Assembly: GCA_944391625.1 (NCBI GenBank)
Contig: CALXUG010000007.1
Span: forward strand, 1-64,000
DNA from: an uncultured Clostridia bacterium
GTDB taxonomy: Bacteria; Bacillota; Peptococcia; Peptococcales; Peptococcaceae
Length of the DNA: 64,000 bases
Reading direction: 5' to 3'
This document shows, piece after piece, positions 5,958-59,722 of this stretch. The translations under genes were made by a program, and so were the position numbers. The notes beneath the pieces are model-generated. The model did not search any database. It saw only the letters and a list, made by a program, of their open reading frames with translations, and was not told where the DNA came from. The first letter of the stretch is position 1, and every line of letters starts with the position of its first letter.

Positions 5958-5986
5958 ATTTGTAAATGCAAGAAAACAAGGAATGT

Positions 5987-10998: not shown

Positions 10999-11014
10999 TA
11001 AAGTTTATAAAAAC

Positions 11015-11057
11015 AAACAGGTCTTGACAGTATTAAAAATGTTGTCAAGACCTGTTT
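11015..11057 (+). terminator. Terminator-like hairpin
   Basis: A perfect 15-bp inverted repeat (11015-11029 with 11043-11057) ends with TTTGCTTTTG just after the ribbon-helix-helix gene. The RsiV-like pseudogene runs up to it from the other side. Confidence 0.75.
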
Positions 11058-11357: not shown

Positions 11358-11400
11358 TCCCCCTATCGACAGCATTCATTTGCCATCGAGAGGGGGTTTT
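11355..11400 (+). terminator. Terminator-like hairpin
   Basis: A 15-bp stem with two mismatches (11355-11369 with 11386-11400) is followed by GTTTTTTG on the plus strand. It lies between the pseudogene and the carbohydrate-binding lipoprotein gene and may also stop transcription arriving from the latter. Confidence 0.55.
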
Positions 11401-11449
11401 GTTTTTTGTCACTTTTATGCAATGGTGTAGTTACAGTATTATAATTTAT

Positions 11450-13006
11450 TTATCCTTCGTACGGGGCTACGTCTTGGAATACACGGCTGTCAGCAGTGAT
11501 GGTAAATTCAATGGATTGCTGAGCAGATGGGTCATAGTTGGTACCCGGTTTCTGCGGTGCTTGGTCCGGCTTGGCGCCATCGGCCGGCTGTTCCGGAGCA
11601 TTGTCCGGTTTGGCTCCGTCTGCTGGCGGTTCCGGTGCATCTTCAGGTTTTACGCCGTCAGCAGGGGCTTCTGGAGCAGCTTCTGCATCAGCGGCATCTG
11701 TTCCGGAAGCGGATGGGTTATCTGTCGCTTCTTGCTGTGCAGGCGGTTCAGGGCGCTGTGTGTCGGATGCTTGTTCTTCGCCGGCTTCTTTTGGTGGTTG
11801 ACCGCCAGGCTGACCGCCTGGTGTCATGGCGGTGCCGTCAGAAGTACCGCGGTGAGCCAGCTGGGTGCCGTTGGTGTAGTCGGACACCTCTGTGTAAATA
11901 CCGTTGGTGATATTGCCGGTTAATGTACCGCCGCTATATAAATAGTAGGTTTCGCCGTCTTTTAAGTCAGGAGATGAAAATTCCAGGATAGAAAACGCAT
12001 TGGCCGGTGTATAGGCCAACAGATAGTTTCCGTCTGCGTCGGTGATGACCAGCGGCGTGTTGGCTGTTTGCGCATCAGCAAAATAGAATTGGGCAAATTG
12101 CTGTGTGGATTCGTCAGAAATTTCCTCATACATATTGCCTGTTGCGCAGACGGTCCCACCATTGATGACAACTCCCAAATCAGCATCCAAACCGCTGTCC
12201 TGGCTGGTGCTATGGGCTTGCGCTGCCACAAAGCCGCCGTTGATATAAATATAACCGTTGGAGTCTATCCCGTCGCCTTCCTCACCGTTCTGCACAGAAC
12301 AGTTCAGGATACCGTCATTGATGGTAATGGCAGAAACGCCATCTTCACTGGCATTGAGGGTATCATCCTGAGACACAATTCCAATGGTGCCGTTATTTAT
12401 GGTCAAATGCAGTTTGGATTCGATTCCTTCTTTATCACCGGAAACCTGCAGCTCGCCTGTTCCGTCAATTTGCAGGGAAACATTGGAGGAGATGGCGCCA
12501 TCATTTTTAATTTCGGTGCCGGTTTCATCGGTATACTTGGCAATGTGAGAGCCGGTGATCTGATTTACCGAACCGTCAGCCAGTGTGATAGTTGCTCCGG
12601 CAGTTCCAACCTCCTGTTGGTCTGCTGCATCCTCAAAAAGAATTGCAGGAGCTGTTCGGCAGCTGATGCTGGCATTATCTAAAATCAGATTGACTTCTTG
12701 CTCCGGCGCGGTAACCCGAATCTGCGCGTCGGTAATGCTGCCGGACAATTGGTATGTGCCGGCCTGTGTGATATTGATAACGGTGTTGGCAATGTCCTGA
12801 TTATCTTCAGATACGTCATCATGGGTTTCTGTTTGGGTGGTCAGGTAAACTGCTTGACTGGTATCCTGGCTGATGGTTTGTCCCTCTACGGTAATTTCCG
12901 AATCGGAAAGGGCAATGGCGGTGGTATCGGATGCCGCTGTGCCTGTGCAGCCGCAGAAAAGCAATCCAACTGTCAGTAATGTTGGAACAAAAAATTGTTT
13001 TTTCAT
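11450..13006 (-). CDS. Carbohydrate-binding (Cthe_2159-like) lipoprotein
   Basis: A 518-residue secreted lipoprotein. The signal peptide ends at a lipobox with Cys20. Residues about 70-360 are rich in short beta repeats with INGG/INDG and D-G-I-D-S motifs (for example EGDGIDSNGYIYINGG), which match the PF14262 family. Its founder, Cthe_2159, is a calcium-containing beta-helix protein that binds cellulose-like and pectic polysaccharides. Residues about 395-495 are Pro/Ala/Glu-rich and hold about three imperfect copies of a PEPPADGAKPDNA unit, probably a wall-spanning linker. An AAAGGATC site precedes the ATG. It lies divergent from galE. The ligand is unknown. Confidence 0.82.
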   Translation of the reverse strand: MKKQFFVPTLLTVGLLFCGCTGTAASDTTAIALSDSEITVEGQTISQDTSQAVYLTTQTETHDDVSEDNQDIANTVINITQAGTYQLSGSITDAQIRVTAPEQEVNLILDNASISCRTAPAILFEDAADQQEVGTAGATITLADGSVNQITGSHIAKYTDETGTEIKNDGAISSNVSLQIDGTGELQVSGDKEGIESKLHLTINNGTIGIVSQDDTLNASEDGVSAITINDGILNCSVQNGEEGDGIDSNGYIYINGGFVAAQAHSTSQDSGLDADLGVVINGGTVCATGNMYEEISDESTQQFAQFYFADAQTANTPLVITDADGNYLLAYTPANAFSILEFSSPDLKDGETYYLYSGGTLTGNITNGIYTEVSDYTNGTQLAHRGTSDGTAMTPGGQPGGQPPKEAGEEQASDTQRPEPPAQQEATDNPSASGTDAADAEAAPEAPADGVKPEDAPEPPADGAKPDNAPEQPADGAKPDQAPQKPGTNYDPSAQQSIEFTITADSRVFQDVAPYEG

Positions 13007-16025: not shown

Positions 16026-17270
16026 ATGAAACAACATAATTATTTTTATTATGGCATTATCTTTTATTGTTTTGTGCTGATGTTTTTTATTTTTGCCATT
16101 ATAAAAAGCCTGCACAGTCTTTTTTTAGTACCTGTTACAGAGAGTTTGCAGATGGGACGCAGCGACTTTTCTCTCATTTTTACAATTTCCGGCCTTTCTG
16201 TGGCAATTGCGTTGCCGATGATAAGCAAATTGCTGCGCAAGTATTCGGCCAAGTTAATTATCTCCTGCAGTATTTTTATGGTGGCGGGCGGTTTCAGCGC
16301 TTATGCGCTGGCCAGTAAAAGTTGGCATTTCTATTTGATTGCTTTGGTTGTAGGTGCAGGCACGGCGGGCTGTACCAATATGGTGGCATCTTTGCTGATC
16401 AATAATTGGTTTGAAGATAGAAAAGGATTTGCCCTGGGTGTTGCATTTACAGGCAGTGGATTTGGCGCTGCGTTGATTTCACCAATTATGACAAAGCTAC
16501 TGGCGGAATATGGTTGGCAGTTTAGCTATGTTTTTTGGGGCAGTGTGATTGGTATTATTTGTTTACCGTTAACGTGGCTGCTGGCTTATCAAAAACCTGC
16601 CGAACGAGGTGTGCTTCCTTATCGGCAGGAACAAAAGGCAAAGGTGGTAAACCAAACTGTATCAGAAACCGGATTTTTATTGCAGGATATTAAAACAAAA
16701 AGTTTTTTCTGGCTATATCTGGCGGCTATGTTTTTTTGGTCTTTGGCGCTGGGAGGTGTTCATATACATATCCCGGCATATTTGACTGATTTGGGGCACA
16801 GTGCTTCTTTTGTGGCCTTTATATACTCTGCGCAGGCTGTTTGTCTGATTGGTGGAAAATTGGTATTGGGTGTTATTTTTGATGAAAAAGGAAGCAGAGC
16901 AGGTATTTTGTTTATGGCAAGCACCTTTTTGTTGGCTTTGATCTGTTTGTTTCTGTCCCGGCAGTCTGTTTTGGCAATTCTGTTTGCGTTGTTGTATGGA
17001 TGCGGCTCCACTTTTACCAGTGTGGGAATTCCGTATCTGGCCGGGAGTTTTTTTGGTCAGCGTAATTATGCAGAGATTCTCAGCATCGTAAATATGGTTT
17101 ATGTGCTGGGCGCAGCATTAGGTCCTTTTATTTCTGGCAAAATGTATGATATCACAGGCGGCTATGTGCTTATTTGGAAAATAGAACTGGTCCTGTTTGT
17201 GTTATCTGTCATTTTATTATTGTATTTGAAAAATTATCTGGAAAAGCAATCTCAAAAAGGGTTGAAATAG
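16026..17270 (+). CDS. MFS transporter (OFA/MCT-like)
   Basis: A 414-residue major facilitator protein with about 12 predicted spans. Overall arrangement resembles the oxalate/formate antiporter or monocarboxylate-type MFS group: GAGTAGCTNM in span 4 and FGAALISPIM in span 5. A central basic loop follows span 6. Strong AAGGAGGG site. A LysR regulator gene converges on it from downstream and may control it (inference). Probably moves small organic acids; the substrate is not determined. Confidence 0.8.
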   Translation: MKQHNYFYYGIIFYCFVLMFFIFAIIKSLHSLFLVPVTESLQMGRSDFSLIFTISGLSVAIALPMISKLLRKYSAKLIISCSIFMVAGGFSAYALASKSWHFYLIALVVGAGTAGCTNMVASLLINNWFEDRKGFALGVAFTGSGFGAALISPIMTKLLAEYGWQFSYVFWGSVIGIICLPLTWLLAYQKPAERGVLPYRQEQKAKVVNQTVSETGFLLQDIKTKSFFWLYLAAMFFWSLALGGVHIHIPAYLTDLGHSASFVAFIYSAQAVCLIGGKLVLGVIFDEKGSRAGILFMASTFLLALICLFLSRQSVLAILFALLYGCGSTFTSVGIPYLAGSFFGQRNYAEILSIVNMVYVLGAALGPFISGKMYDITGGYVLIWKIELVLFVLSVILLLYLKNYLEKQSQKGLK

Positions 17271-44872: not shown

Positions 44873-45195
44873 AATCTAAGTTTCCTTTCACTTTAGTATA
44901 GTAATACGAATGATTCCACTTTCTAGTTGAAAAATCAATCCGTATTTCGTTAAGTCTATAGAATATTATAGCAAAGTCGGTTAGAAATCTACAGTTGAAA
45001 TGCTATTTTTAGTCAGAGCCAGCGCAGATAGTTGCATCTTGTGTTGGTTCTGTTTTTATGCTGCAGGAGATTGAACGTATAGAAGCTATGTTACCACGCA
45101 GAGATATTTTTATAAAAAGTTTTCTTCTGTTTGGAAGGAATTGGGATAGCTATCACGAAAGATACTTTAACTGGAATAAAAAGGAAGTGATTGCT
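44873..45195. other. Gene-free upstream region of spoIIA
   Basis: Holds the divergent 5' ends of the 44399 gene and of the spoIIA operon. No sigma-H promoter could be assigned with confidence. The open frame from 45058 is an upstream extension of spoIIAA, not a separate gene. Confidence 0.5.
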
Positions 45196-45549
45196 TTGGA
45201 TTGGAAAATGGAAAAAGATACGCTGACCATATATCCGCAGGGAGATTTGGACATGGTAACCGCTAAAAAAGTGAAAGACAGCCTGGATGCCATTTTATAT
45301 AATCGCAGCGGTCTTAAAAATCTGATTATTAATTTGGGGGATATCAGTTTTATTGACAGTTCCGGATTGGGCATGCTCATTGGCTGTTATAAGGTTATGC
45401 ATGGACGGCAGGGAAAAATGATGCTTTGCGATGCCAATGATACTGTGTACCGATTGCTGGAATTATCAGGTATGAAGAAGCTGATGCCGGTGATGCGGCT
45501 GGAGTCTCAGAGAACTGCGAGGGGTGAAGGATATGGTAAAAGACAATAG
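45196..45549 (+). CDS. spoIIAA: Anti-sigma F factor antagonist
   Basis: A 117-residue STAS-domain protein, exactly the length of B. subtilis SpoIIAA. The motif FIDSSGLGMLIG contains the serine phosphorylated by SpoIIAB. Unphosphorylated SpoIIAA releases sigma-F in the forespore. The TTG at 45196 is chosen: AAGGAAG lies 8-10 bp upstream, and the longer frame from 45058 would add an atypical N-terminal tail. Overlaps spoIIAB by 17 bp. Confidence 0.92.
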   Translation: MDWKMEKDTLTIYPQGDLDMVTAKKVKDSLDAILYNRSGLKNLIINLGDISFIDSSGLGMLIGCYKVMHGRQGKMMLCDANDTVYRLLELSGMKKLMPVMRLESQRTARGEGYGKRQ

Positions 45550-45982
45550 TGTGACATTAAAGGTAAAAAGCATTGGGGAAAATGTTTCTTTGGTGCGGAT
45601 GGTGGTCAGTGGTTTCTTGTTTCCCTATGATCTTACCTTTGAGGCATTGGATGAGATTAAGATTGCTTTGTCAGAAGCGGTATCCAACTGCATCATTCAT
45701 GGCTATGAAAATGCTGAAGATCAGGAAGTTACTGTCAAGATGGAGGTGAAAGAGCATCAGCTGACCATACAGGTGATAGATACCGGAATTGGGATTGCGG
45801 ATATTGAGCAGGCTATGGAACCAGCTTTTTCCACCAGAGAGGAGCATATGGGGCTGGGGTTTGTGTTTATGCAGACGTTCATGGACCGCATAGAGGTGTA
45901 TTCTCAGCCTGGGCAGGGGACAACGGTTTTGCTGCATAAAACATTGCCTGCCGGAGAACAAAAAATTGATGAAGTGGGGTAA
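45533..45982 (+). CDS. spoIIAB: Anti-sigma F factor, serine kinase
   Basis: A 149-residue GHKL-type kinase: N box ALSEAVSNCIIHGY, G1 box DTGIGI, G2 box HMGLGFVFM. It binds and holds sigma-F and phosphorylates SpoIIAA. The ATG at 45533 has GGGG 9 bp upstream; a GTG at 45524 is too near this site. Translationally coupled to spoIIAA; sigF follows 9 bp later. Confidence 0.95.
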   Translation: MVKDNSVTLKVKSIGENVSLVRMVVSGFLFPYDLTFEALDEIKIALSEAVSNCIIHGYENAEDQEVTVKMEVKEHQLTIQVIDTGIGIADIEQAMEPAFSTREEHMGLGFVFMQTFMDRIEVYSQPGQGTTVLLHKTLPAGEQKIDEVG

Positions 45983-45991
45983 GGTGGTTTT

Positions 45992-46759
45992 ATGGCAGGT
46001 AGATTAAATGAAATGAATTTACCTCGTTTTCCATTATTACCAAACAACGAAGTACAAGCTCTATTAGTGCAGGCAAAAGCTGGAGATGAGGCAGCGAGAG
46101 AGCGTATCATCAACTGTAATTTACGGTTGGTATTTAATTTGATTCAGCGATTTTCTAACAGAGGCTACGACATGGAGGATTTGTTTCAGATTGGCACCAT
46201 TGGACTAATCAAAGCAATCGACAAATTTGACCTGTCTTATCAGGTGCGTTTTTCTACCTATGCGGTGCCGATGGTGATTGGTGAAATCCGCCGATTTTTG
46301 CGGGATGACGGCCCTATGAAGATCAGCCGCTCTTTAAAGGAAACCGGCATTCGCATCCGGTATACTCAAGAGCAGCTAACCAAAGAATTGGGACGGGAGC
46401 CAAAGCTGTCAGAAGTAGCAGAAAAATTGGAATTGACACTGGAACAGCTGACAGAGGCCATGGAAGCTACCCAATACCTGACATCCATTCATGAAGAATT
46501 GTATCAGGATGATGGAGATGCCATTTATGTGATTGATCAGTTGGCGGATCGGCAGGAAGATAATCAATTTTTAGATCATATGGCGCTGGAAGAAGTGATG
46601 GGCCGTTTGCCGGACAGAGAAAAAAATATTTTGTATCTGCGGTTTTATCGCGACCAAACACAGACAGAAGTAGCCCAAAAAATAGGTATCTCGCAGGTGC
46701 AGGTGTCCCGTTTGGAGCGCAGTGCGCTGAAAAAAGTGCGGGAAATGTTGTCTGGGTGA
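45992..46759 (+). CDS. sigF: RNA polymerase sigma-F factor
   Basis: A 255-residue sporulation sigma factor. Region 2 has DMEDLFQIGTIGLIKAIDKFD and FSTYAVPMVIGEIRRFLRDDG; region 4 has the QTEVAQKIGISQVQVSRLER helix-turn-helix. Directs forespore-specific transcription once released by the SpoIIA switch. Third gene of spoIIAA-spoIIAB-sigF. Confidence 0.96.
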   Translation: MAGRLNEMNLPRFPLLPNNEVQALLVQAKAGDEAARERIINCNLRLVFNLIQRFSNRGYDMEDLFQIGTIGLIKAIDKFDLSYQVRFSTYAVPMVIGEIRRFLRDDGPMKISRSLKETGIRIRYTQEQLTKELGREPKLSEVAEKLELTLEQLTEAMEATQYLTSIHEELYQDDGDAIYVIDQLADRQEDNQFLDHMALEEVMGRLPDREKNILYLRFYRDQTQTEVAQKIGISQVQVSRLERSALKKVREMLSG

Positions 46760-47906: not shown

Positions 47907-47922
47907 GTGATTGGAGGCTGCA

Positions 47923-49068
47923 ATGAACAAATTTACGTATTCATATCCTACAAAAGTATATTTCGGTCAGAAGGTCGTAAAGAAAGCGTTTGACGAAGAA
48001 CTGCCGAAGGTGGGTAAAACCATTATGCTGGCTTACGGTGGTGGTTCTATTAAGAAAAACGGCATTTATGATGAGCTGATAACCCTGCTGAAAAAGGCAG
48101 GAAAAGAAATTGTGGAGTTTTATGGTATTATGCCGAATCCGACTTATGCCAAAGTACAGGAAGGCGCTGCTCTTGTAAGAGAGCGGCAAGTAGAGTTTAT
48201 TTTAGCGGTTGGCGGCGGCAGTGTTATTGACTGCTGTAAGGTGATTTCGGCACAGGCTGTTTTGGATGAAGATATTTGGGAACTGGAATATAACAAAGGT
48301 AGATTTCCCACTTCCGGGATTCCAGTCGGCGCAGTGGTGACAGCTTCCGGTACCGGAGCTGAAATGAACAACGGCGCGGTCATCACTCACGAAGATAAAC
48401 TGTGGAAAGGTGGTATCTTTGGAACACCGGCTTCCTTTGCTGTTCTTGATCCAGATTATACAATGTCGGTGCCGCCCATGCAGGTGCTTTCCGGTACGTT
48501 TGACACTTTGAGCCACGCCATGGAAACCTATCTTGGCGATTCCGATGCGGACAATGTATCAGACGATGTTGCACTGGCTGTCATGCGAAACACTGTGGTT
48601 AATATGCGCCGTCTGCTTGCAGACATCAATGACATTCAAGCGAGAAGCAACCTAATGTGGGATTCCGCCATGGCTGAAAACGGAATTCTGAAAGCCGGAC
48701 GATTGACCGATTTTCAGGTGCATCAGATTGAACACCAGCTTGGAGCTTACACCGACTGTAACCATGGTCAGGGACTTGCTGTCATTCAACCGATATACTA
48801 TCGGCATATTCTGGAAGCTGCCAGAGAAAAATTTACTCGGTTTGCAAAGGTGGTCTTTGGGGCAGATACGGCGGAGGCCGGTTTGGATGAATTGGAAAAA
48901 CTGATTAGAGATTGTGGTCTTCCCACGAAAATGGGTGAATTAAAATCCATTGTAGAAATTACTCCAGAATTGCTGCGTCAAGTAGCAGATACTTGCAACA
49001 TTATTAAGTCCGGTCCTCGTGAACTTACCCGAAATGAGATTTATGATATTCTCAATGAGGCGTGTTAA
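47923..49068 (+). CDS. Iron-containing alcohol dehydrogenase
   Basis: A 381-residue group-III (BdhA/YqhD-like) alcohol dehydrogenase. GGGSVIDCCKVI binds NADP; metal-site motifs GTFDTLSHAMETY (Asp, His) and HQIEHQLGAYTDCNHGQGLA (His residues) are intact. It likely reduces aldehydes with NADPH and detoxifies or ferments them. GGAGG lies 8 bp before the ATG at 47923. Downstream of the MerR-type promoter, which fits aldehyde-responsive control (inference). Confidence 0.93.
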   Translation: MNKFTYSYPTKVYFGQKVVKKAFDEELPKVGKTIMLAYGGGSIKKNGIYDELITLLKKAGKEIVEFYGIMPNPTYAKVQEGAALVRERQVEFILAVGGGSVIDCCKVISAQAVLDEDIWELEYNKGRFPTSGIPVGAVVTASGTGAEMNNGAVITHEDKLWKGGIFGTPASFAVLDPDYTMSVPPMQVLSGTFDTLSHAMETYLGDSDADNVSDDVALAVMRNTVVNMRRLLADINDIQARSNLMWDSAMAENGILKAGRLTDFQVHQIEHQLGAYTDCNHGQGLAVIQPIYYRHILEAAREKFTRFAKVVFGADTAEAGLDELEKLIRDCGLPTKMGELKSIVEITPELLRQVADTCNIIKSGPRELTRNEIYDILNEAC

Positions 49069-49113: not shown

Positions 49114-49791
49114 ATGCTCAAAAAAATTCTTGGTTTGCTGATGGCCGCAACTATGATTTTTGCTCTTGCAGCTTGCGGTCAGACGCCCGCACAAAACAGT
49201 GACAATTCGGCTTCTTCTGACTCTGTTGTCAGCAGTAAAACTTCCCAAACACAATCATCTGAGGCTAAAACGTCCGCTTCTATTGGGGAAGCTCAAACAG
49301 AATCAACAGACAACAAAACACTGGTGGCTTATTTCTCCTGGTCGGGGAACACAGAAGAAATGGCGTCATATATTGCTGAACAGACAGGCGGCGATTTGTT
49401 GGAAATAGAACCGAAGGCAGCTTATCCTGCTGATTACAATGAAACGGGCGATATTGCAAAGGTTGAGCGTGACGAAAATGCCCGACCGGAAATTGCAAAT
49501 CTCCCTGCTTCTATTGATGCATATGATACCATTCTGGTGGGTTACCCCATTTGGTGGCATACAGCGCCTATGATTATTGGCACATTTTTGGAGAGTTATG
49601 ACTTGAGCGGCAAAGAGGTTTATCCGTTTACCCAGTCGGCTTCCATGGATACGGAGCAGTTTAACCAGTCTATTGAATTTGTCCGTGAAGTTTCGGAGGG
49701 GGCGACGGTTCATAATGGATTGTTTGCAAGGCCGTCTGATACCGGTGCTATTGACGACTATTTAGAAGAGGTATTAGGCAATAACAAGTGA
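49114..49791 (+). CDS. Flavodoxin lipoprotein
   Basis: A 225-residue predicted lipoprotein. Signal ends at ALAAC (Cys21); a Ser/Thr-rich linker follows to about residue 65; then a flavodoxin_4-type domain with FMN phosphate loop SWSGNT and the YPIWWHTAP aromatic loop. It would carry electrons on the outer face of the membrane. The ATG at 49114 follows GAGGAAA by 8 bp. The DNA of the flavodoxin domain (49321-49762) recurs almost unchanged in the next gene. Confidence 0.85.
   Translation: MLKKILGLLMAATMIFALAACGQTPAQNSDNSASSDSVVSSKTSQTQSSEAKTSASIGEAQTESTDNKTLVAYFSWSGNTEEMASYIAEQTGGDLLEIEPKAAYPADYNETGDIAKVERDENARPEIANLPASIDAYDTILVGYPIWWHTAPMIIGTFLESYDLSGKEVYPFTQSASMDTEQFNQSIEFVREVSEGATVHNGLFARPSDTGAIDDYLEEVLGNNK
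49321..49762 (+). repeat. Flavodoxin-domain duplication, copy 1
   Basis: About 442 bp repeated at 50482-50923, offset exactly 1161 bp (a multiple of three). I count about two differing bases (a silent C/T near the left edge and a G/A near the right end). This implies recent duplication or gene conversion. Confidence 0.92.
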
Positions 49792-49821
49792 TAGATTGAT
49801 TTTAGAAAGGGGTCGGTTTTC

Positions 49822-50949
49822 ATGAAGAAATTTAGAACAATTTTTTCGGTGATTTTTAGCATGGTGATGGTTCTGACTTGTGCCATGCCCGCTATGGCGG
49901 CAGAAATTTTTTCGGATGTGTCTGCAGATGCGTATTATGCCGAAGCTGTAACATATGCTTCGGAAAATGGTTTGATTTCTGGAACGGAGCAAGGAGTATT
50001 TTCTCCTGATATTCCCTTAAGTCGAGGAATGTTAGTGACCATATTATGGCGAAATGAGGGACAACCGCAAGCTGCTCCATCTATTTTTACGGATGTACCG
50101 TCGGATTCTTATTATGCAGCTGCTATTGATTGGGCAGCAGAAAATGGGATTGTTGCTGGTTATGGAGAAAATCGTTTTGGTCCGAATGATCCGATAGAGC
50201 GTCAGCAACTTGCCGTTATATTATACCGATATGCGGCATATCAGGGCAATGATGTGACTGTGGCAGGCAATACATCATTTATAGATTCCGCTGAAATTGC
50301 AGCTTATGCCGAAACTGCGGTAACATGGGCGCAAAAAAATGGTATTATAGCTGGAAAAAGTGGAAATGTTTTTGACCCAACCGGACAAACAACCCGTGCA
50401 GAGGCCGTTACCATACTGTACCGTTATATCACAAAAAATGCACAGGAAAATCCTAATATTCCTGAAGTTGATAAAGATACGCTGGTGGTTTATTTCTCCT
50501 GGTCGGGGAACACAGAAGAAATGGCGTCATATATTGCTGAACAGACAGGCGGCGATTTGTTGGAAATAGAACCGAAGGCAGCTTATCCTGCTGATTACAA
50601 TGAAACGGGCGATATTGCAAAGGTTGAGCGTGACGAAAATGCCCGACCGGAAATTGCAAATCTCCCTGCTTCTATTGATGCATATGATACCATTCTGGTG
50701 GGTTACCCCATTTGGTGGCATACAGCGCCTATGATTATTGGCACATTTTTGGAGAGTTATGACTTGAGCGGCAAAGAGGTTTATCCGTTTACCCAGTCGG
50801 CTTCCATGGATACGGAGCAGTTTAACCAGTCTATTGAATTTGTCCGTGAAGTTTCGGAGGGGGCGACGGTTCATAATGGATTATTTGCAAGGCCGTCTGA
50901 TACCGGTGCTATTGACGACTATCTTTCTGAAAATGGGCTTATAAAATAA
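49822..50949 (+). CDS. SLH-domain protein fused to flavodoxin
   Basis: A 375-residue exported protein. Signal peptide about 1-27 (cleavage in the MAA region). Three S-layer homology domains at about 28-82, 88-142 and 150-207 (each with F-x-D-V/S...YY/YA and a closing R-x-x-x-V-x-I-L-Y/W-R). A flavodoxin_4 domain fills 217-375 with SWSGNT. SLH domains bind pyruvylated wall polymers or, in Negativicutes, tether to peptidoglycan, so this is a wall-anchored flavodoxin. Its flavodoxin half is a near-exact DNA copy of the preceding gene. AAAGGGG site. Confidence 0.9.
   Translation: MKKFRTIFSVIFSMVMVLTCAMPAMAAEIFSDVSADAYYAEAVTYASENGLISGTEQGVFSPDIPLSRGMLVTILWRNEGQPQAAPSIFTDVPSDSYYAAAIDWAAENGIVAGYGENRFGPNDPIERQQLAVILYRYAAYQGNDVTVAGNTSFIDSAEIAAYAETAVTWAQKNGIIAGKSGNVFDPTGQTTRAEAVTILYRYITKNAQENPNIPEVDKDTLVVYFSWSGNTEEMASYIAEQTGGDLLEIEPKAAYPADYNETGDIAKVERDENARPEIANLPASIDAYDTILVGYPIWWHTAPMIIGTFLESYDLSGKEVYPFTQSASMDTEQFNQSIEFVREVSEGATVHNGLFARPSDTGAIDDYLSENGLIK
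50482..50923 (+). repeat. Flavodoxin-domain duplication, copy 2
   Basis: Second copy of 49321-49762, here fused in frame behind three SLH domains. The two genes diverge again at their last codons (EEVLGNNK against SENGLIK). Confidence 0.92.
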
Positions 50950-50965
50950 AAAACAGGAGAATGAT

Positions 50966-51718
50966 ATGATGAAAAAACAAACAAAAAAATGGGTTTCACT
51001 GTTCACCATATGTGTCCTCGGCATTGCTGCTGTTTTCTCTCTGACTGCTTGTTCAGGACAAACACCTTCATCATCCAGAGGCGATGTTACAACATCTTCG
51101 ACAGATACCGGAAGTTCTACGAATGAGAGTAAGCCCACAGACAACGCCGGTTCTACTGGCGATACAGCCGATTTAACAAACGAGGATAGCAATACACTTG
51201 TTGTTTATTTTTCTGTTCCCGATGACCGTGACAACAGCTATGTGGAAGTGGATGGTGAGCATCTCGGCAATACACAATATATGGCGCAGGTTATTCAGCA
51301 AAATACAGGCGCAGATATGTTCCGCATTGAACCTGCTACTCCCTATCCTACCGATCACGAAGAGCTTTTGGAAGCAGCACAGGATGAGATTCGTACAAAC
51401 GCACGTCCTGAAATTAACGATACAATCCAGAATTTTGATTCTTATGATGTAGTGTTTGTGGGTTATCCCAACTGGAATGCCGATATGCCGTACATTCTGT
51501 ATTCGTTTTTTGAAAGCTATGATTTTTCCGGAAAAACCATCGTTCCGTTTATGACCCATGGCGGCAGTGGTTTTTCGGGAACACCGGGAACAATTGCTGA
51601 GTTGGAACCTGATGCGGCAATGCTGGATGGAAAAGCCATTTCAAGAAGCAGTATCGAGGATGCAGAACAGGAAATTATCGATTGGATTGACGAGATTGGA
51701 CTGCTGAAGACGAACTGA
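50966..51718 (+). CDS. Flavodoxin lipoprotein
   Basis: A 250-residue predicted lipoprotein. Lipobox SLTAC with Cys29, a Ser/Thr-rich linker to about 75, then a flavodoxin_4 domain that begins TLVVYFSVPDDRD. It carries an insertion in the FMN phosphate loop where neighbours have SWSGNT, so FMN binding may differ. YPNWNADMPYI is the aromatic loop. 17 bp after the SLH-flavodoxin gene and 10 bp before the DUF4405 gene, clearly one operon. Confidence 0.85.
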   Translation: MMKKQTKKWVSLFTICVLGIAAVFSLTACSGQTPSSSRGDVTTSSTDTGSSTNESKPTDNAGSTGDTADLTNEDSNTLVVYFSVPDDRDNSYVEVDGEHLGNTQYMAQVIQQNTGADMFRIEPATPYPTDHEELLEAAQDEIRTNARPEINDTIQNFDSYDVVFVGYPNWNADMPYILYSFFESYDFSGKTIVPFMTHGGSGFSGTPGTIAELEPDAAMLDGKAISRSSIEDAEQEIIDWIDEIGLLKTN

Positions 51719-51728
51719 GGTGAGCAGC

Positions 51729-52424
51729 ATGAAACCAACGGCAATTATGAAACTATGCGTTGATGTGATGATGTACCTTCTGTTTCTGCTGCTTATGGGA
51801 CAATATCTTTTGCGGGATGCGCCTCACGAATGGCTGGGGCTTACTGCCGGAATGTTTTTCGTTTTGCACAATGTGCTTAACTACAAATGGTATAAGGCTA
51901 TGTTCAGAGGCAGATACAATGCAATGCGTATTGTGCAGACGGCGGTGAATATTCTTCTTTTGCTTGCTGTATTGGGATGTGTACTCAGCGGAATTTTTGC
52001 TTCGCAGTATATCTTCTCTGTCGGAAACGGCAGCACCATAGAGCTTGGCAGATTTCTGCATCTTGTAACAACAGCGTGGGCGTTTATCCTTATGTCGATA
52101 CATTTGGGACTGCACTGGACAAAATTGATAGGGCTGGCCAAAAAAGTCCCCATGAACCCTAGAGTTAAAACGGCTCTGTGCCCATTTTTTCAGATACTCG
52201 TGCTTGCGATATGCATATATGGTGTGTATTTGTTTATAGACAGGCGGTTTTGGGAGGAACTGTTTCATCTGATTGACTATCAGAAGGAATATGATGAATC
52301 CAAAACATTCTTGGTGTATCTTATGGAGTCCGTCATTATGTCATCCCTGTTTGTTGCCGTAACGTATTATGCTAAAAAACTTGCTTTATATAAAAAGCAA
52401 GTACACAGAAAGGAGGCACCATGA
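51729..52424 (+). CDS. DUF4405 membrane protein, predicted diheme cytochrome b
   Basis: A 231-residue membrane protein with about six predicted spans; the N-terminal four match DUF4405 (HEWLGL, HNVLNYKWYK, then RFLHLVTTAWAFILMSIHLGLHW in part). His33 and His47, and His111 and His125, are each separated by 13 residues, the spacing of the paired heme ligands in cytochrome b. A bis-heme b four-helix core is therefore predicted. It would pass electrons from the cytosol or quinone pool to the surface flavodoxins encoded upstream (inference). GAGG lies 9 bp before the ATG. Confidence 0.75.
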   Translation: MKPTAIMKLCVDVMMYLLFLLLMGQYLLRDAPHEWLGLTAGMFFVLHNVLNYKWYKAMFRGRYNAMRIVQTAVNILLLLAVLGCVLSGIFASQYIFSVGNGSTIELGRFLHLVTTAWAFILMSIHLGLHWTKLIGLAKKVPMNPRVKTALCPFFQILVLAICIYGVYLFIDRRFWEELFHLIDYQKEYDESKTFLVYLMESVIMSSLFVAVTYYAKKLALYKKQVHRKEAP

Positions 52425-52537
52425 ATCGACCTTATATTGTTTGCCATATCTTAAGTGCTTTGGAGGGAAAAATTACCGGAGCGTTTATGGGAACGCCGGC
52501 AGCACAGGCGGTTAGCGGCGAGTATGCTCGCATCTAA
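52421..52537 (+). pseudogene. RibD C-terminal/dihydrofolate-reductase-like N-terminal fragment
   Basis: A 38-codon frame that overlaps the DUF4405 gene by ATGA and reads MNRPYIVCHILSALEGKITG, the typical start of RibD-C/DHFR-like reductases, then GAFMGTPAAQ, then stops. The rest of the roughly 230-residue family length is missing. Its stop lies 24 bp before the 61-bp direct repeat at 52562, suggesting that the truncation happened at that boundary. AGGAGG site retained. Confidence 0.72.
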
Positions 52538-52561: not shown

Positions 52562-52622
52562 AGAAAGCATTTATATTTGTTTTGTGTTGGCAATCCGCTG
52601 CTTTATTTTAACTGTTGGTTAA
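52562..52622 (+). repeat. 61-bp direct repeat, left copy
   Basis: Identical over 61 bp to 59574-59634. Begins AGAAAGCATTTATATTTG and ends ACTGTTGGTTAA. The two copies enclose about 7 kb from the LysR gene to the flavodoxin/aldo-keto-reductase fusion. Confidence 0.93.
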
Positions 52623-52800: not shown

Positions 52801-53691
52801 TCAATTATCAGGCAATTCAAATTCAAGTCGAAGTTTCTGCAAAAATCGCCCCGCCGCTCTTGAAAAAACCTGATATTTTTTCCATACGATACATAATCCT
52901 GCTTCTGAAACGGGAGACAGCGGTCGGAAGCAAAGATTGCTGTCTCCACTTGTGTTGATTAGTTTATCTAAAGCGATTGCGTAACCAAATCCCATTTTTA
53001 CAAAACGGGAAGCATTATACAGAAGATCGTAGGTCGCAACGATATTTAATTGCGATATATCTTTTCGCAGCCAAGCAATCATATCGCTGCTGATTGCTGT
53101 TTGATGTGATAAGATGAGGGGCTTATCCCATAAATCTTCGGCACAAACAGATTCCTTTTCAGCTAAAGGACTATCCTTTCGCATTAGAACTCCCCAAGTA
53201 TCTTTTACCGGAAGCCTGATAAAATCATACTTTGAAATATCAAAAGGTTCTACTAACAGACCGAAATCAATCAGACCTTTATCTAATCGTTCTACGATAT
53301 GTTCAGCGTCGCCGCTATAGATGTGATAGCGAATCAGGGGATATTCTCCCTGTAAATCTTTTGCTACTTTCGCAATCGTGGAAACGGCTTCGGTTTCGCC
53401 GCTGCCCATATAAATTTCACCGCTGATATTTTCGTCAGAGGAAGAAAGTTCAGATTTTGTTTTTTCCATTAGAGCAATCATTTCTTCGGCTCTTTTACGA
53501 AGCAGCATACCGTCCTCTGTTAAGGTGACTTTTTTACTTCCTCTGATAAGAAGCTGCTTTCCAACTTCATCTTCTAAATCCTTTAATTGTCTTGATAGCG
53601 GAGGCTGCGTCATATGCAAAGCTTCTGCTGCCTTTGTAATACTCTCTTCTCTTGCGACTGCAAGAAAGTATTGTAATACTCGAATATCCAA
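52801..53691 (-). CDS. LysR-type transcriptional regulator
   Basis: A 296-residue LysR protein with the classical N-terminal helix-turn-helix (ITKAAEALHMTQPPLSRQLK) and effector domain. It is divergent from the dehydrogenase/flavodoxin operon starting at 53834, the normal arrangement for LysR control of a neighbouring operon. The dyad at 53743-53765 is its likely operator and also overlaps its own promoter. Confidence 0.93.
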   Translation of the reverse strand: MDIRVLQYFLAVAREESITKAAEALHMTQPPLSRQLKDLEDEVGKQLLIRGSKKVTLTEDGMLLRKRAEEMIALMEKTKSELSSSDENISGEIYMGSGETEAVSTIAKVAKDLQGEYPLIRYHIYSGDAEHIVERLDKGLIDFGLLVEPFDISKYDFIRLPVKDTWGVLMRKDSPLAEKESVCAEDLWDKPLILSHQTAISSDMIAWLRKDISQLNIVATYDLLYNASRFVKMGFGYAIALDKLINTSGDSNLCFRPLSPVSEAGLCIVWKKYQVFSRAAGRFLQKLRLEFELPDN

Positions 53692-54079: not shown

Positions 54080-55252
54080 ATGAACGATTTTATTTTTCAC
54101 AATCCCGACAAGGTATATTTCGGAAAAAACCAACTTGAACATCTCTCTGAGGAATTATTGAAATTCGGAAAAAAGGTTTTGCTGGTCTATGGCGGCGGCT
54201 CTATTAAAAAGAATGGTCTTTACGACAGTATCGTAACCATTGCCAAGAACAGCGACATTGAGCTGTTCGAGCTTTCCGGCGTTGAGCCGAATCCAAGACA
54301 TTCCACGGTCAATAAAGGGGCGGCAATTTGCAAAAAAGAAAATATCAGCGTTGTTCTTGCTGCGGGCGGCGGCTCGACAATCGACTGCGCCAAAGGAATT
54401 GCCGCAGCCGCACTTACCGAAAATGCCGATGTGTGGCCGCTTGTATCTAACGGAGTATGGGTAACGGAAGCTCTGCCCGTTGTCGCTATTCTTACAAATG
54501 CTGCAACCGGCTCGGAAATGGACGCTTGGAGCGTTATTTCCAATATGGATACAAACGAAAAAATAGGTCTTGGCGGTACTGCTCTTATTCCGAGAGTCGC
54601 ATTTGAAAATCCCGAATACAGCTATACGCTTCCGTCTTATCAAACTGCCTGCGGTGCTTTTGATATATTCAATCACATTTTGGATAACTACTACCTTGCA
54701 GGAGAAGCGACTTTTGATCTGCTGCTTGAAATGCAAGAGGCAGTTATGCGTACCGTAGTAAAATGGACGCCTGTTGCAATGAAAGAACCTGAAAATTATG
54801 AGGCAAGAGCAAATCTGATGTGGGCGTCCTCTATGGCATTAAACTCAATTCTTGACGGAGGAACGGTACACGGCTGTGCTTGCCACTTTATGGAGCACGA
54901 GCTTTCCGCTTACTATGATATTACACACGGACACGGGCTTGCGATTGTAACCCCTCGTTGGCTTACTTATATTCTGGATGAAGCCACTGCTCCCGCAATT
55001 TACCGCCTTGGCGTAAAGGTGTTCGGTATTCCCGAAAATCTCTCTGCAATGGACGGAGCGAAAAAAGCGATTGAAGCAGTTACAGATTTCTGCTTTAACA
55101 CGCTCGGTTTACAGCCTAACCTTTCCGATTTAGGCATTGATGAAAAGCACTTTAAGGTTATGGCGGAACACGCCTGTGCCGCCGGCTCGATAACAGGTCC
55201 GAAAGAGCTAACCCCGGCTGATGTTGAGGAAATTTTCAAGATGTGCTTATAA
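54080..55252 (+). CDS. Iron-containing alcohol dehydrogenase
   Basis: A 390-residue group-III (butanol dehydrogenase-like) enzyme. GGGSTIDCAKGI binds the cofactor; GAFDIFNHILDNY and HFMEHELSAYYDITHGHG hold the metal ligands. It is a third paralogue in the window, similar in length to those at 33275 and 47923. Cytosolic aldehyde reductase/alcohol dehydrogenase. GC content is higher than that of the upstream flavodoxin genes. GGAGGAAA site. Confidence 0.93.
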   Translation: MNDFIFHNPDKVYFGKNQLEHLSEELLKFGKKVLLVYGGGSIKKNGLYDSIVTIAKNSDIELFELSGVEPNPRHSTVNKGAAICKKENISVVLAAGGGSTIDCAKGIAAAALTENADVWPLVSNGVWVTEALPVVAILTNAATGSEMDAWSVISNMDTNEKIGLGGTALIPRVAFENPEYSYTLPSYQTACGAFDIFNHILDNYYLAGEATFDLLLEMQEAVMRTVVKWTPVAMKEPENYEARANLMWASSMALNSILDGGTVHGCACHFMEHELSAYYDITHGHGLAIVTPRWLTYILDEATAPAIYRLGVKVFGIPENLSAMDGAKKAIEAVTDFCFNTLGLQPNLSDLGIDEKHFKVMAEHACAAGSITGPKELTPADVEEIFKMCL

Positions 55253-55284: not shown

Positions 55285-55818
55285 ATGAAGATTTTAGTGT
55301 TAAATGGCAGTCCAAGGCCGGAAGGAAATACAAAAAGGATGATAAATGCTTTTCGGGAAGGTGCAGAAAGTTCCGGTCATAAGGTTGATATTATTGATGT
55401 ATGCAAAAAAAGAATTTCGGGATGTCTTGCCTGTGAATACTGCCATACCAAGAGTGGCGGGGAATGCGTTCAAAAAGATGATATGCGGGAAATATACACC
55501 TTGCTCCGGGACGCAGAAATGCTGATAATCGCTTCGCCCATTTATTATCATGGGATTACAGGGCAACTTAAATGTGTGATTGACCGCTTTTATGCGGCAG
55601 CATACCCCCAAAAGCCTCCGCACCTGAAAAAAGTAGCGATGATATTAAGTTCCGGTGATGCTGACATGTATGACGGTGCAATGTTTTCTTTTCAGGGAGA
55701 TTTTTTGGATTATCTTGGTTTGGAAAATGCAGGAGTTTTTACAGCACATGGCGCCGAAAATGGTTCAGGCAAAAAAACAGACGAACTTTATCATTTCGGA
55801 AAAACTCTAGCGGACTAA
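55285..55818 (+). CDS. Flavodoxin family FMN reductase
   Basis: A 177-residue NADPH-dependent FMN-reductase/iron-sulfur-flavoprotein-type protein. NGSPRPEGNTKRM binds FMN phosphate; CLACEYCHTKSGGECVQKDD is the short Cys-rich loop seen in Isf-like relatives; SPIYYHGITGQLKC is the third flavin loop. Probably passes electrons between NAD(P)H, flavin and small acceptors in the cytosol. Second enzyme gene of the operon. Confidence 0.88.
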   Translation: MKILVLNGSPRPEGNTKRMINAFREGAESSGHKVDIIDVCKKRISGCLACEYCHTKSGGECVQKDDMREIYTLLRDAEMLIIASPIYYHGITGQLKCVIDRFYAAAYPQKPPHLKKVAMILSSGDADMYDGAMFSFQGDFLDYLGLENAGVFTAHGAENGSGKKTDELYHFGKTLAD

Positions 55819-55856: not shown

Positions 55857-56801
55857 ATGGATACAAAAACACCTAAAATCGCATTGGGCGCTTGGTCTTG
55901 GGGTGCTGGAGCAGCTGGTGGCGATCAAGTATTCGGAAATCATTTATCTGAAAGTGATTTACAGCCTGTGTTTAATAGGGCTATGGAATGTGGTTTAACT
56001 TTATGGGATACCGCTGCCGTTTACGGTGAGGGAAGTTCTGAGCGTATTCTCGGAACTTTCCTAAAAGATGTACGCCGGGAAGAGGTCATTCTTTCCACAA
56101 AATTTACGCCGCAGATTGCCAGCGATTCACCGGACGCAATGCAGGAAATGCTGGACGGAAGCAAAGAACGTCTGCATGTAGATGTGATTGATCTCTATTG
56201 GATTCACAATCCTTTTGATGTGGAGAAGTGGACACCGAAGCTAATTCCGCTGGTAAAGAGCGGCCAGATCAAGGCGATTGGTGTTTCCAATCACAACCTT
56301 GCGGAAATTAAGCGGGCAAATGAAATTTTGAATGAAGCGGGTTTGAAAATCTCCGCTGTGCAAAACCACTTCAGTCTGTTACATCGATCTTCAGAGCGCG
56401 CCGGGATTCTGGACTATTGCAAGGAAAACGGCATTACTTTTTATGCCTATATGGTATTGGAACAGGGCGCTTTGACAGGCAAATACAACAAAGAGCACCC
56501 GTTCTCCGCCGGGACAGGTCGGGGAGATTCCTACAACCCGCATTTAGCAGAGATTGAAGTATTAGTAACCGAACTGAAAAAGGTCGGTGAAAAATATAAC
56601 GCCAGCCCCGCACAAATCGCAACGGCTTGGGCAATCGCAAAAGGTACGCTTCCGATTATCGGCGTTACAAAAGTAAAGCAGGTGGAAGAAGCGGCGGTTT
56701 CTGCTCGAATTACATTGACTGCTGATGAAATTGACCGCTTAGAAAAATTGGGCGATGGATCGGGCGTTCATACTCTGCGTGAATGGGAAAAGGAGATGTA
56801 A
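55857..56801 (+). CDS. Aldo/keto reductase
   Basis: A 314-residue NADPH-dependent reductase with a TIM barrel. The catalytic tetrad is visible: Asp and Tyr in LWDTAAVYGEGSSE, Lys in STKFTP and His in YWIHNP; the C-terminal cofactor loop is present (PIIGVTKVKQVEEA). Reduces aldehydes or ketones. Cytosolic. GGAGGAA site. Follows the FMN reductase gene and is 3 bp from the acetyltransferase gene. Confidence 0.92.
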   Translation: MDTKTPKIALGAWSWGAGAAGGDQVFGNHLSESDLQPVFNRAMECGLTLWDTAAVYGEGSSERILGTFLKDVRREEVILSTKFTPQIASDSPDAMQEMLDGSKERLHVDVIDLYWIHNPFDVEKWTPKLIPLVKSGQIKAIGVSNHNLAEIKRANEILNEAGLKISAVQNHFSLLHRSSERAGILDYCKENGITFYAYMVLEQGALTGKYNKEHPFSAGTGRGDSYNPHLAEIEVLVTELKKVGEKYNASPAQIATAWAIAKGTLPIIGVTKVKQVEEAAVSARITLTADEIDRLEKLGDGSGVHTLREWEKEM

Positions 56802-56804
56802 ATT

Positions 56805-57383
56805 TTGAATGCCGAAGAAATAATCAAGTGTTTTACCGATAACATTGAGCCGGACGAAGAAAAGAAATTAACCGCCGATGAATTGTTTCAGGAAGCGATA
56901 AAAATAACAATGGAAATGAACAATCAGTACCATACGCCGGAGGAGCTTCGGGAGATTATGAGCCGTTTGACGGGAAAGCAAATTGATGATACTTTCCGCT
57001 TGTTTCCCCCGTTTTACACAGACTTTGGAAAAAACATTTCTATCGGGAAAGATGTGTTTATCAACTCCGGCTGCCATTTTCAAGATCAAGGCGGTATTTC
57101 AATCGGGGACGGTACGCTGATCGGTCATAATGTGGTATTGGCTACTATCAATCACGATTTGATACCAGGCAACGGTAGAAAAAATCATTATGCACCTATT
57201 AAATTGGGTAAAAATGTGTGGATTGGTTCAAATGCAACCGTCTTACCGGGGGTAACAGTTGGCGATTGGGCGGTTATCGCAGCAGGTGCAGTTGTTACAA
57301 AAGATGTGCCGCCCTACACGGTTGTAGGCGGTACACCTGCAAAATTTATCAAAAAAGTGAAAGATGAGGCGGTGTCTAAATGA
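56805..57383 (+). CDS. Hexapeptide-repeat sugar O-acetyltransferase-like protein
   Basis: A 192-residue left-handed beta-helix acetyltransferase of the maltose/galactoside acetyltransferase (LacA/Maa) type: ECF-like N-terminal helices, then hexapeptide repeats from about 70 to 180, with catalytic His in [17 protein letters not shown] and [17 protein letters not shown]. Transfers acetyl from acetyl-CoA to a sugar or other hydroxyl. TTG start behind GGAG. Overlaps the next gene by ATGA. Confidence 0.87.
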
Positions 57384-57958
57384 AAAAAGTATTAGCAATC
57401 AACGGAAGTGCAAGAAAGGACGGCAATACGGCTATTCTTATCAATACAATATTTGAAAAACTGAATAAAGCGGGAATCGAAACAGAAATGGTACAGTTTT
57501 CCGGTAATGTGATAGAACCCTGCAAAGCGTGTTGGGCATGTGGTGGACAGAAAAATTGCGTTCACCGCAAGGATATGTTTCGGGAAGTATTTGATAAGAT
57601 GAAGAATGCAGACGGAATTATTCTCGGCTCTCCGGTTTATTCCGCAAATATATCGGCAAATATGCAGGCGTTTTTAGAGCGTGCAGCGGTTGTCTGTGAT
57701 ATGAATCCCGGTTTGCTGAAACATAAAGCAGGAGCCTCCGTTGCCGCAGCAAGGCGAGGCGGTGCATTGAACGCTATTGATTCAATGAATCACTTCTTTC
57801 TGAATCACGAAATGTTTGTGGTAGGAAGCACCTATTGGAATATGGCATACGGACAAATGCCCGGTGATATTCAGCAAGACGAAGAAGCCCTTTCTAATAT
57901 GAGCAATCTTGCAGAAAACATGATTTGGCTTCTTAAAAAAATTAAGAGGGAGGAATAG
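57380..57958 (+). CDS. Flavodoxin family FMN reductase (iron-sulfur flavoprotein-like)
   Basis: A 192-residue protein with [13 protein letters not shown] as FMN-phosphate loop, and [13 protein letters not shown], a compact cysteine motif as in Isf-type flavoproteins that hold a 4Fe-4S cluster. The C terminus ([20 protein letters not shown]) is the intact equivalent of the remnant at 47677-47906. Translationally coupled to the acetyltransferase gene and followed 2 bp later by the lipoprotein fusion gene. Confidence 0.88.
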
Positions 57959-57960
57959 AG

Positions 57961-59436
57961 ATGAAATGCCTTGAAACGCTTTTCCTCGTGCTTACTCTTT
58001 TGTTCAGTGCAGGTTGCGGTGAAAGTGCGGGAGAAGCACAACCGAATACACCGCCCAATAATGCAAATACAGAAATTGTAAGCGAGGATCAAACAATGGA
58101 AAGCAACGAAAACAACACATTGGTTGTGTATTTTTCGGCTACCGGTACAACAGAAAAGGTTGCCGAGTATGCCGCTGATATACTTCATGCAGATATTTAT
58201 GAAATCGTCCCCGAAGTCCCCTATACCGATAAAGATTTAGCCTATTATACAGGAGGTCGAGCTGACAGGGAGCAAGATGATTCATCCGCTCGCCCCGCCA
58301 TTTTAAGTGACGTTGAAAACATGGAGCAATATGACACTATACTTTTAGGCTATCCGATTTGGCACGGGCAAGCACCGAGAATTATCAGCACTTTTCTTGA
58401 AAGATATGATTTTTCCGGTAAGACAATTATCCCATTCTGTACTTCACACAGTAGCGGAATTGGAACGAGTGACACAAATCTGTATTCACTGGCAGCAAAT
58501 GCCGAATGGCTTAATGGAGAGCGCTTTTCGGCTGACACTTCAAGAGAAGAAGTACAAACATGGTTGGATTCGTTAGGCTTAATATCCGATACTACCGCAG
58601 AAGTCGGCGTATTCAACTTTGAGACTCATACTGTAATGCTCAACAGCGGCTATGAAATGCCGATCAATGGTTTGGGAACATACAGCCTTCACGGTGACGA
58701 GTGTATCAATTCTGTCAAATCTGCTCTATCTAATGGTGTACGGCTTATTGATACCGCTTCGGCTTACGGAAATGAGGAAGAAATCGGACAGGCAATTCGT
58801 GAAGCAATCGACGAGGGAATTATCAAAAGAGAGGATATTTTTGTTACCACAAAGCTCTATCCGGGAAGTGAAATGGAAAATCCAGAGGCTGCCATTCAAG
58901 ATTGCTTAGACAGGCTGAATATTGGTTATGTGGATATGATGTTGCTCCACCATCCTGACCCTAACGATGTGAAAGCATATAAAGCGATGGAAAAGTTTGT
59001 AGCGGACGGTAAGATTCGTTCTATTGGTCTTTCTAACTGGTATGTGGAGGAATTGACGGAATTTTTGCCGCAAGTAGATACTGTTCCTGCGCTGATACAG
59101 AACGAAATCCACCCCTATTATCAAGAAAATGAGGTCATTCCGTTTATCCAGGAAAAAGGCATTGTCGTTCAGGGCTGGTATCCCCTTGGAGGCAGAGGGC
59201 ATACAGGCGAGCTTTTGGGCGATTCGGTGATTTCTGAAATTGCTAACGCTCACGGCGTATCTTCCGCACAGGTCATTTTGCGTTGGAATCTGCAAAAAGG
59301 TGTTGTTGTAATTCCCGGTTCCAGCAATCCCGACCACATTAAGGAGAATACCGAACTGTATCATTTCGCCTTGACTGAGGACGAAATGAACCGTATAAAT
59401 GCTCTTGACCGTGGCGAAAAGCACGATTGGTATTAA
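57961..59436 (+). CDS. Lipoprotein fusion of flavodoxin and aldo/keto reductase
   Basis: A 491-residue predicted lipoprotein. Signal ends at FSAGC with Cys19; an Asn/Pro-rich linker runs to about 50; a flavodoxin_4 domain (about 55-205) has SATGTTEK as phosphate loop; an aldo/keto reductase domain (about 215-490) has all four catalytic residues: Asp and Tyr in LIDTASAYGNEEE, Lys in TTKLYPG, His in LLHHPDP. The continuous frame shows no join artefact. NADPH is not expected outside the cell, so the reductase may take electrons from the flavodoxin, or export may be incomplete (both inferred). Last gene of the operon. Confidence 0.87.
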   Translation: MKCLETLFLVLTLLFSAGCGESAGEAQPNTPPNNANTEIVSEDQTMESNENNTLVVYFSATGTTEKVAEYAADILHADIYEIVPEVPYTDKDLAYYTGGRADREQDDSSARPAILSDVENMEQYDTILLGYPIWHGQAPRIISTFLERYDFSGKTIIPFCTSHSSGIGTSDTNLYSLAANAEWLNGERFSADTSREEVQTWLDSLGLISDTTAEVGVFNFETHTVMLNSGYEMPINGLGTYSLHGDECINSVKSALSNGVRLIDTASAYGNEEEIGQAIREAIDEGIIKREDIFVTTKLYPGSEMENPEAAIQDCLDRLNIGYVDMMLLHHPDPNDVKAYKAMEKFVADGKIRSIGLSNWYVEELTEFLPQVDTVPALIQNEIHPYYQENEVIPFIQEKGIVVQGWYPLGGRGHTGELLGDSVISEIANAHGVSSAQVILRWNLQKGVVVIPGSSNPDHIKENTELYHFALTEDEMNRINALDRGEKHDWY

Positions 59437-59722
59437 ATTGCATTTTCTTTGAAAAAATTTGTGTGATAACACAGAGTACAAATTTGCAAATAGTAAAGAG
59501 GTGGTTTTCTGGGACGGTAGTTGTCTAATCCAATGGCTCTTGTAAGTGATGATTCATTCTTTCTTTTTGTCGTAGAAAGCATTTATATTTGTTTTGTGTT
59601 GGCAATCCGCTGCTTTATTTTAACTGTTGGTTAATTTTTGCAACCAATCATGTAACAATTGCTCCATTGTATCCCCAGGGTATCTTTGCTATGATGAAAA
59701 TATAAAACAGAACGGAGGTGCA
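59437..59722. other. Intergenic region with right copy of 61-bp repeat
   Basis: No gene seen. Contains the repeat at 59574-59634 and the promoter region of the XRE regulator. Confidence 0.6.
59574..59634 (+). repeat. 61-bp direct repeat, right copy
   Basis: Identical to 52562-52622. The sequences beyond the repeat differ on both sides. Marks the right boundary of the LysR-divergent operon segment. Confidence 0.93.

Follow-up and report, generated by a model that had tools for sequence, protein, structure and literature searches.

A stretch of 64,000 nucleotides from an uncultured Clostridia bacterium (assembly GCA_944391625.1, contig CALXUG010000007.1, positions 1 to 64,000), referred to below as the window, contains four adjacent co-directional genes encoding a flavodoxin lipoprotein (w1), an SLH-anchored flavodoxin (w2), another flavodoxin lipoprotein (w3) and a membrane protein of the DUF4405 family. 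The locus is probably an ApbE-independent variant of the DUF4405-flavodoxin module for extracytosolic electron transfer, in which flavin mononucleotide (FMN) would be held non-covalently. The system itself is known since 2024, when a DUF4405 haem-b cytochrome was reported to be co-localised with ApbE-flavinylated extracytosolic Flavodoxin_4 proteins (Huang et al. 2024, PMC11334425), so that the "candidate new system" announced in a preliminary description of this DNA had already been described. A search for exported, secreted or SLH flavodoxins, with most subscription journals outside its reach, returned nothing relevant beyond that paper, and five features were not found in the literature searched: a variant without ApbE and motif, flavodoxins on SLH anchors, domain exchange from one anchor to another, fusions that bear on the topology, and the setting among aldehyde-reductase genes. 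The gene order and direction given in the preliminary description agree with the domain scans and coordinates (intergenic gaps of 30, 16 and ~10 bp). The four genes, together with a further exported flavodoxin (w4), are:

49114..49791, + strand: w1, flavodoxin lipoprotein (Flavodoxin_4 E 2.6e-31; lipobox LAAC; ribosome site GAGGAA upstream)
49321..49761, + strand: flavodoxin-domain copy 1, in w1 (439/441 bp identical to copy 2)
49822..50949, + strand: w2, signal peptide, three SLH repeats and Flavodoxin_4 (Flavodoxin_4 E 6.6e-30; SLH E 1.5e-32)
50482..50922, + strand: flavodoxin-domain copy 2, on the SLH scaffold of w2 (439/441 bp identical to copy 1)
50966..51718, + strand: w3, flavodoxin lipoprotein of the PRK06934 type (Flavodoxin_4 E 6.6e-27; PRK06934 192.3 bits against a cut-off of 172)
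51729..52424, + strand: DUF4405, putative six-helix membrane protein of cytochrome b type (domain match, histidine pattern, AlphaFold model)
57961..59436, + strand: w4, lipoprotein of 491 aa, exported Flavodoxin_4 fused to an aldo-keto reductase (AKR) (Flavodoxin_4 E 5.5e-46; Aldo_ket_red E 5.6e-50)

All four flavodoxins match Flavodoxin_4 (PF12682) above the curated cut-off of 24 bits (109, 104, 94 and 156 bits for w1 to w4, respectively). The clustering is far above chance, since the genome (2.97 Mb) has only seven such matches and four of them lie in the window. The export claimed in the preliminary description is borne out by a single N-terminal hydrophobic segment in each protein (hydrophobicity scan) and by lipoboxes in the three lipoproteins w1, w3 and w4 (LAAC, LTAC and SAGC). 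w1 shows the canonical SWSGNTE phosphate loop, and its relatives in the PDB are 3klb and 4j8p (E ~1e-24). The AlphaFold model of w2 (pLDDT, the predicted local distance difference test, 83.1) matches the same two flavoproteins and the SLH structure 3pyw. The cytosolic proteins 3klb and 4j8p have the same domain and the same short phosphate-binding loop as w1, w2 and w4, whereas the window proteins possess export signals and anchors. As for the location, w2 combines three SLH repeats with a signal peptide, and LpxC was not found in the genome; the cell is therefore probably a monoderm, and a diderm cell with periplasmic SLH proteins is disfavoured. Binding to the wall is predicted for w2, probably the only one of them to reach the wall or surface, while the lipoproteins would stay on the membrane's outer face.

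The flavodoxins of the window were earlier counted as several exported proteins. w1-w3 are real, but the domains of w1 and w2 are near-identical at the DNA level and represent one domain recently copied between a lipid-anchored and an SLH-anchored scaffold, which had been missed. Other SLH proteins have flavodoxin domains that cluster in the tree with w4 and not with w2, which fits a putative domain replacement in w2. The closest relatives of w3 are in loci L050 and L052. The protein w4, described as a fourth exported flavodoxin, is indeed an exported Flavodoxin_4 but no simple carrier, because its fusion to an AKR had been overlooked. The AKR tetrad D, Y, K, H is present in w4 (by reading the sequence), and a homologue of 500 aa occurs in L081 (78% identity over 302 aa). 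An AKR outside the cell is surprising, since enzymes of this family depend on NADPH, a cofactor that should be missing there; the AKR part of w4 may instead be powered by the flavodoxin to which it is fused, or may be inactive.

The match of the window protein to DUF4405 (PF14358) is borderline, with 25.9 bits by hmmscan, just below the cut-off of 26.7, and 29.6 bits in the genome search, above it. Its start is more likely the ATG at 51729, preceded by the predicted ribosome site GAGGTGAG, than the alternative GTG at 51720. The diheme-like histidines noticed earlier hold up well: H33/H47 and H111/H125, each pair spaced by 14 residues, are invariant among 56 relatives, and in the AlphaFold model (six long helices, pLDDT 89.8) each pair is located on one helix. 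The DUF4405 protein of an Oscillospiraceae relative binds haem b, and the family is kin to FezC, the cytochrome of ferrosomes (PMC11334425); DUF4405 had been assigned earlier, in archaea, to the cytochrome b family (PMC5898192).

The pairing of flavodoxin and DUF4405, whose conservation in other genomes the preliminary description proposed to look for, is indeed widespread. About 85,000 genomes were scanned with a DUF4405 alignment, giving 80 loci chosen by DUF4405 similarity alone, with the neighbours disregarded; adjacency was counted in the 72 loci with at least 1.5 kb of upstream sequence. An exported Flavodoxin_4 lies within 4 kb of DUF4405 in 52/72 loci, within 1.5 kb in 47/72 and within 100 bp in 30/72, and 25/72 loci have two or more within 4 kb. 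No exported Flavodoxin_4 was present within 1.5 kb in a contrast set of 30 loci, those whose DUF4405 scores highest with the Pfam model in the phylum, mostly of other subtypes. Three gene fusions join the two partners directly: six helices and a seventh followed by the flavodoxin (L054), DUF4405-FGE-flavodoxin with a seventh helix ahead of the flavodoxin (L168; helices 2 and 4, recognisable by their histidine motifs, escaped the hydrophobicity scan), and loss of helix 6 followed by the flavodoxin (L174). In all three, the odd number of helices and the positive loops would place the flavodoxin outside the cell. The same topology reached by two different helix routes is good evidence that the flavodoxin partner acts outside. 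The adjacency and the fusions rule out chance proximity and, together with the published haem binding of a DUF4405, support the functional link proposed in the preliminary description.

SLH-flavodoxins adjoin DUF4405 in Pseudoflavonifractor capillosus (L083), L066, L086 and L110/L114, and one lies 5 kb off in L085. Homologues of w2 with SLH and flavodoxin domains are also present in genome G410, and G009, of the same family, has an SLH protein with two flavodoxin domains and no DUF4405 adjoining. Several anchors occur in one locus in L086, where a 651-aa SLH-FGE-flavodoxin (10207-12159) is found beside an SLH-flavodoxin and DUF4405; the 721-aa triple fusion of L168 (5101-7266) adjoins a flavodoxin lipoprotein. 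The pair is also plasmid-borne, on Ruminococcus albus pRUMAL02, where the flavodoxin is annotated at only ~83 codons. On a Pasteurella multocida plasmid (L131, 4658-5687), DUF4405 stands beside a short annotated flavodoxin and adjoins an IS1 transposase, and a similar DUF4405 match occurs on Salmonella plasmids.

The main departure from the published module concerns flavinylation. ApbE flavinylates Flavodoxin_4 at a serine or threonine within an insertion after the first strand, and it was proposed that extracytosolic flavodoxins are flavinylated to prevent loss of the flavin (Huang et al. 2024, PMC11334425). In the alignment, no flavinylation motif is found in w1-w4: w1, w2 and w4 are without the beta1-alpha1 insertion, and w3 has the insertion (VPDDRDNSYVEVDGEHL) but without the [SG]A[ST] site, its relatives in L050 and L052 being likewise motif-less. 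Among 106 exported flavodoxins of the related loci, 41 have the motif, 7 a proline variant and 58 neither (by our own, approximate expression D-x(2-4)-[SGTR]-A-[ST]); 38 of the 58 have an ordinary short loop. These 58 motif-less proteins run counter to the proposal that flavodoxins outside the cytosol are flavinylated. In the tree, the window flavodoxins fall among motif-less exported clades. ApbE (PF02424) gave no match in the window genome, which is 96% complete, while control genomes were positive. It is also missing from all seven congeners searched (eight genomes of the genus with that of the window, one of them 99% complete) and from 11 of 13 genomes of the family. Among genomes with a nearby DUF4405-flavodoxin pair, 6/47 are without ApbE, one of which, Lachnospiraceae bacterium NE2001 (L119), is not labelled as a metagenome-assembled genome. 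It is thus firm that exported, apparently non-flavinylated flavodoxins beside DUF4405 are common, and that the window genome is without known means to flavinylate them.

The published clusters (Oscillospiraceae, Desulfosporosinus lacus and Anaerocolumna) likewise have, in Bacillota, a DUF4405 gene beside extracytosolic Flavodoxin_4 genes, and a D. lacus locus was recovered among the related loci as L067. The window agrees with them in the six-helix DUF4405 with four central histidines and in the adjacent extracytosolic Flavodoxin_4, but its flavodoxins have no flavinylation site and its genome no ApbE; the SLH anchoring and the AKR fusion are absent from the main text of PMC11334425. The preliminary description set bound FMN domains apart from flavin-based extracellular electron transfer (EET). 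In the published module the same domain binds FMN covalently, which blurs this contrast; what does set the window apart is that ApbE and the motif are both missing.

In Listeria FLEET (Ndh2, EetA/B, PplA, FmnB), the FMN-bind domains of PplA are flavinylated by an ApbE-type enzyme. The likeness is that electrons would pass from membrane to surface by way of a flavin lipoprotein, again in a Gram-positive organism, whereas the window genome is without ApbE and a cytochrome stands in place of EetA/B. No ApbE-type FmnB of a Listeria-type system is present in the genome; the FMN-bind domain was not searched for.

In the favoured mechanism, the DUF4405 protein would be a diheme b-type cytochrome of the cytoplasmic membrane, taking electrons from the membrane or the cytosolic side. 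The genome encodes a true MenA (412 bits against a cut-off of 277) and has no match to RnfD/NqrB (PF03116), which rules out Rnf/Nqr as the electron source and makes menaquinol the most plausible one, or else a cytosolic donor. The two haems would pass electrons to the exported flavodoxins, with FMN held as in cytosolic flavodoxins and with two levels of anchoring, by lipid at the face of the membrane and by SLH in the wall; the flavodoxins would then reduce extracytoplasmic partners. The loading with haem and FMN, the donor, the direction of flow and the acceptor are what we infer here. Tentatively, it is possible that in some Bacillota DUF4405 feeds swappable non-covalent-FMN flavodoxin domains on lipid, transmembrane and SLH anchors, as a membrane-to-wall relay without flavinylation.

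The genes around the cluster bear on its possible output. Those upstream and downstream are:

47911..49068, + strand: YqhD-like iron-containing alcohol/aldehyde dehydrogenase (Pfam Fe-ADH E 6.5e-39; best NCBIfam PRK15138, YqhD type, under its cut-off)
52801..53691, - strand: LysR-type regulator (domain scan)
54080..55252, + strand: second YqhD-like iron-containing dehydrogenase (Pfam and NCBIfam scan)
55285..55818, + strand: FMN_red family flavoprotein, no export signal seen (domain scan)
55857..56801, + strand: aldo-keto reductase (assigned by reading the translation, no separate domain scan)
57380..57958, + strand: FMN_red family flavoprotein, no export signal seen (domain scan)

The first dehydrogenase gene ends 45 bp ahead of w1 and is likely in one operon with the flavodoxin genes; predicted promoters and terminators in the region were no more numerous than in shuffled sequence. 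Across the 80 loci the recurrent neighbours are AKR (44), LysR (32), YqhD-type Fe-ADH (24), cupin (20), FMN_red (17), MerR (17), a DUF362 lipoprotein (13), CMD (13) and ApbE (9), with three clusters of cyclophilin-like lipoproteins in 10, 7 and 5 loci (the DUF362, cyclophilin-like, FGE and hydrolase clusters were named by Pfam, the others by reading or from the window proteins). Much of this set is in the window, with two Fe-ADH genes (47911 and 54080), one for LysR (52801), two for FMN_red (55285 and 57380) and one for AKR (55857). Fusions of exported flavodoxins to FGE-like and abhydrolase domains also occur. The conserved dehydrogenase, AKR, LysR and FMN reductase genes point to small-molecule or aldehyde reduction at least as much as to mineral-type EET. 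With the flavodoxin-AKR fusion, the conserved neighbours suggest that the physiological output is the reduction of small carbonyls or other electrophiles rather than mineral respiration. In the aldehyde-response cluster YqhC/YqhD/DkgA of E. coli, a YqhD-type dehydrogenase and a DkgA-type AKR are under a dedicated regulator. The window too pairs these two enzyme types with a regulator, of the LysR and not the AraC type, and adds exported flavodoxins and DUF4405.

A perfect 61-bp direct repeat (52562-52622 and 59574-59634), with exactly two copies genome-wide, flanks a 7-kb block running from LysR to the flavodoxin-AKR gene and looks like an insertion or duplication boundary. Just ahead of it ends a 38-codon stub (52421-52537, MNRPYIVCHILSALEGKITG...), which resembles the beginning of RibD_C/DHFR-like genes found close to DUF4405 and flavodoxins in L118 and elsewhere.

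Four other explanations were weighed. The exported flavodoxins may be enzymes of the WrbA or azoreductase kind acting on quinones, dyes or electrophiles, with DUF4405 merely keeping them reduced and no carrier role or extracellular respiration. The detoxification-type reductases among the conserved neighbours, the fusions to AKR, FGE-like and abhydrolase domains, which look like enzyme modules, and the match of the flavodoxin model also to WrbA structures speak for this; however, the structurally known Flavodoxin_4 relatives are small FMN proteins without known substrate, and multiple, differently anchored carriers in a locus fit a relay, so that we regard it as unlikely. Acquisition of ferric iron or haem, with DUF4405 and the exported flavodoxins reducing Fe(III) or handling haem at the surface, would agree with the kinship to FezC (PMC11334425) and with the existence of FldH, a haem-bound protein of flavodoxin fold (8g64 among the fold matches). 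It is decidedly improbable, as no iron transporter, siderophore or ferrosome genes were recognised among the recurrent neighbours and the closest structures are the flavoproteins 3klb (an FMN complex) and 4j8p.

Flavinylation of the flavodoxins might nevertheless take place, through an ApbE that the assembly lacks or a different transferase, which would make the locus identical to the published module. The genome is 4% short of complete and 41/47 genomes with the pair do have ApbE, but its absence throughout the eight genomes of the genus and the lack of the site, and in w1, w2 and w4 of the insertion that carries it, make this very unlikely. Equally hard to credit is a decaying mosaic without current function, made up of the copied domain, the truncated neighbour and the 7-kb block between the repeats. 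The near-identical copy, the stub, the confinement of the repeat to this locus and the absence of close DUF4405 relatives from most of the genus are in line with it; against this, all four genes are intact, the histidines and FMN loops are conserved, and the neighbour set matches other genomes.

Several points weigh against the favoured non-covalent relay as well. For the window proteins the model is built on sequence, prediction and relatives, and the export calls are heuristic (hydrophobicity and lipobox). Comparison of the DUF4405 model with the PDB gave no significant match by fold, nor was there one by profile. FMN that is not covalently bound could diffuse away outside the cell. Since ApbE is prevalent among genomes with the pair, its absence may be derived and confined to a minority, and the association between absence of ApbE and absence of the motif (Fisher p 0.04 to 0.21, according to the definition used) was too weak and was dropped as a claim. 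Rearrangement of the locus may be under way, as the truncated gene directly downstream hints.

Elsewhere in the window, genes resembling SpoIIAA, SpoIIAB and SigF (45058-46759, read from translations) suggest a spore-forming member of the Bacillota. Two flavoenzymes of the old-yellow-enzyme type are found at 3932-8130, the first of which (3932-5851) is nearest to BaiCD and the long bilirubin reductase, below their cut-offs; a reductive metabolism of host or dietary compounds is possible. The transporter of the major facilitator superfamily at 16026-17270 is nearest to the conjugated bile salt transporter family, under its cut-off.

If the exported flavodoxins use non-covalent FMN, covalent flavinylation would be dispensable for extracytosolic flavin electron transfer, contrary to the published generalisation of exported flavodoxins as flavinylated, and surveys with apbE as marker would miss such systems. 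The SLH-anchored forms would place a flavodoxin in the cell wall, of which no earlier description was found in the literature searched. The natural DUF4405-flavodoxin fusions offer compact material for direct biochemistry, and the shared aldehyde-reductase neighbourhood provides a testable physiological role.

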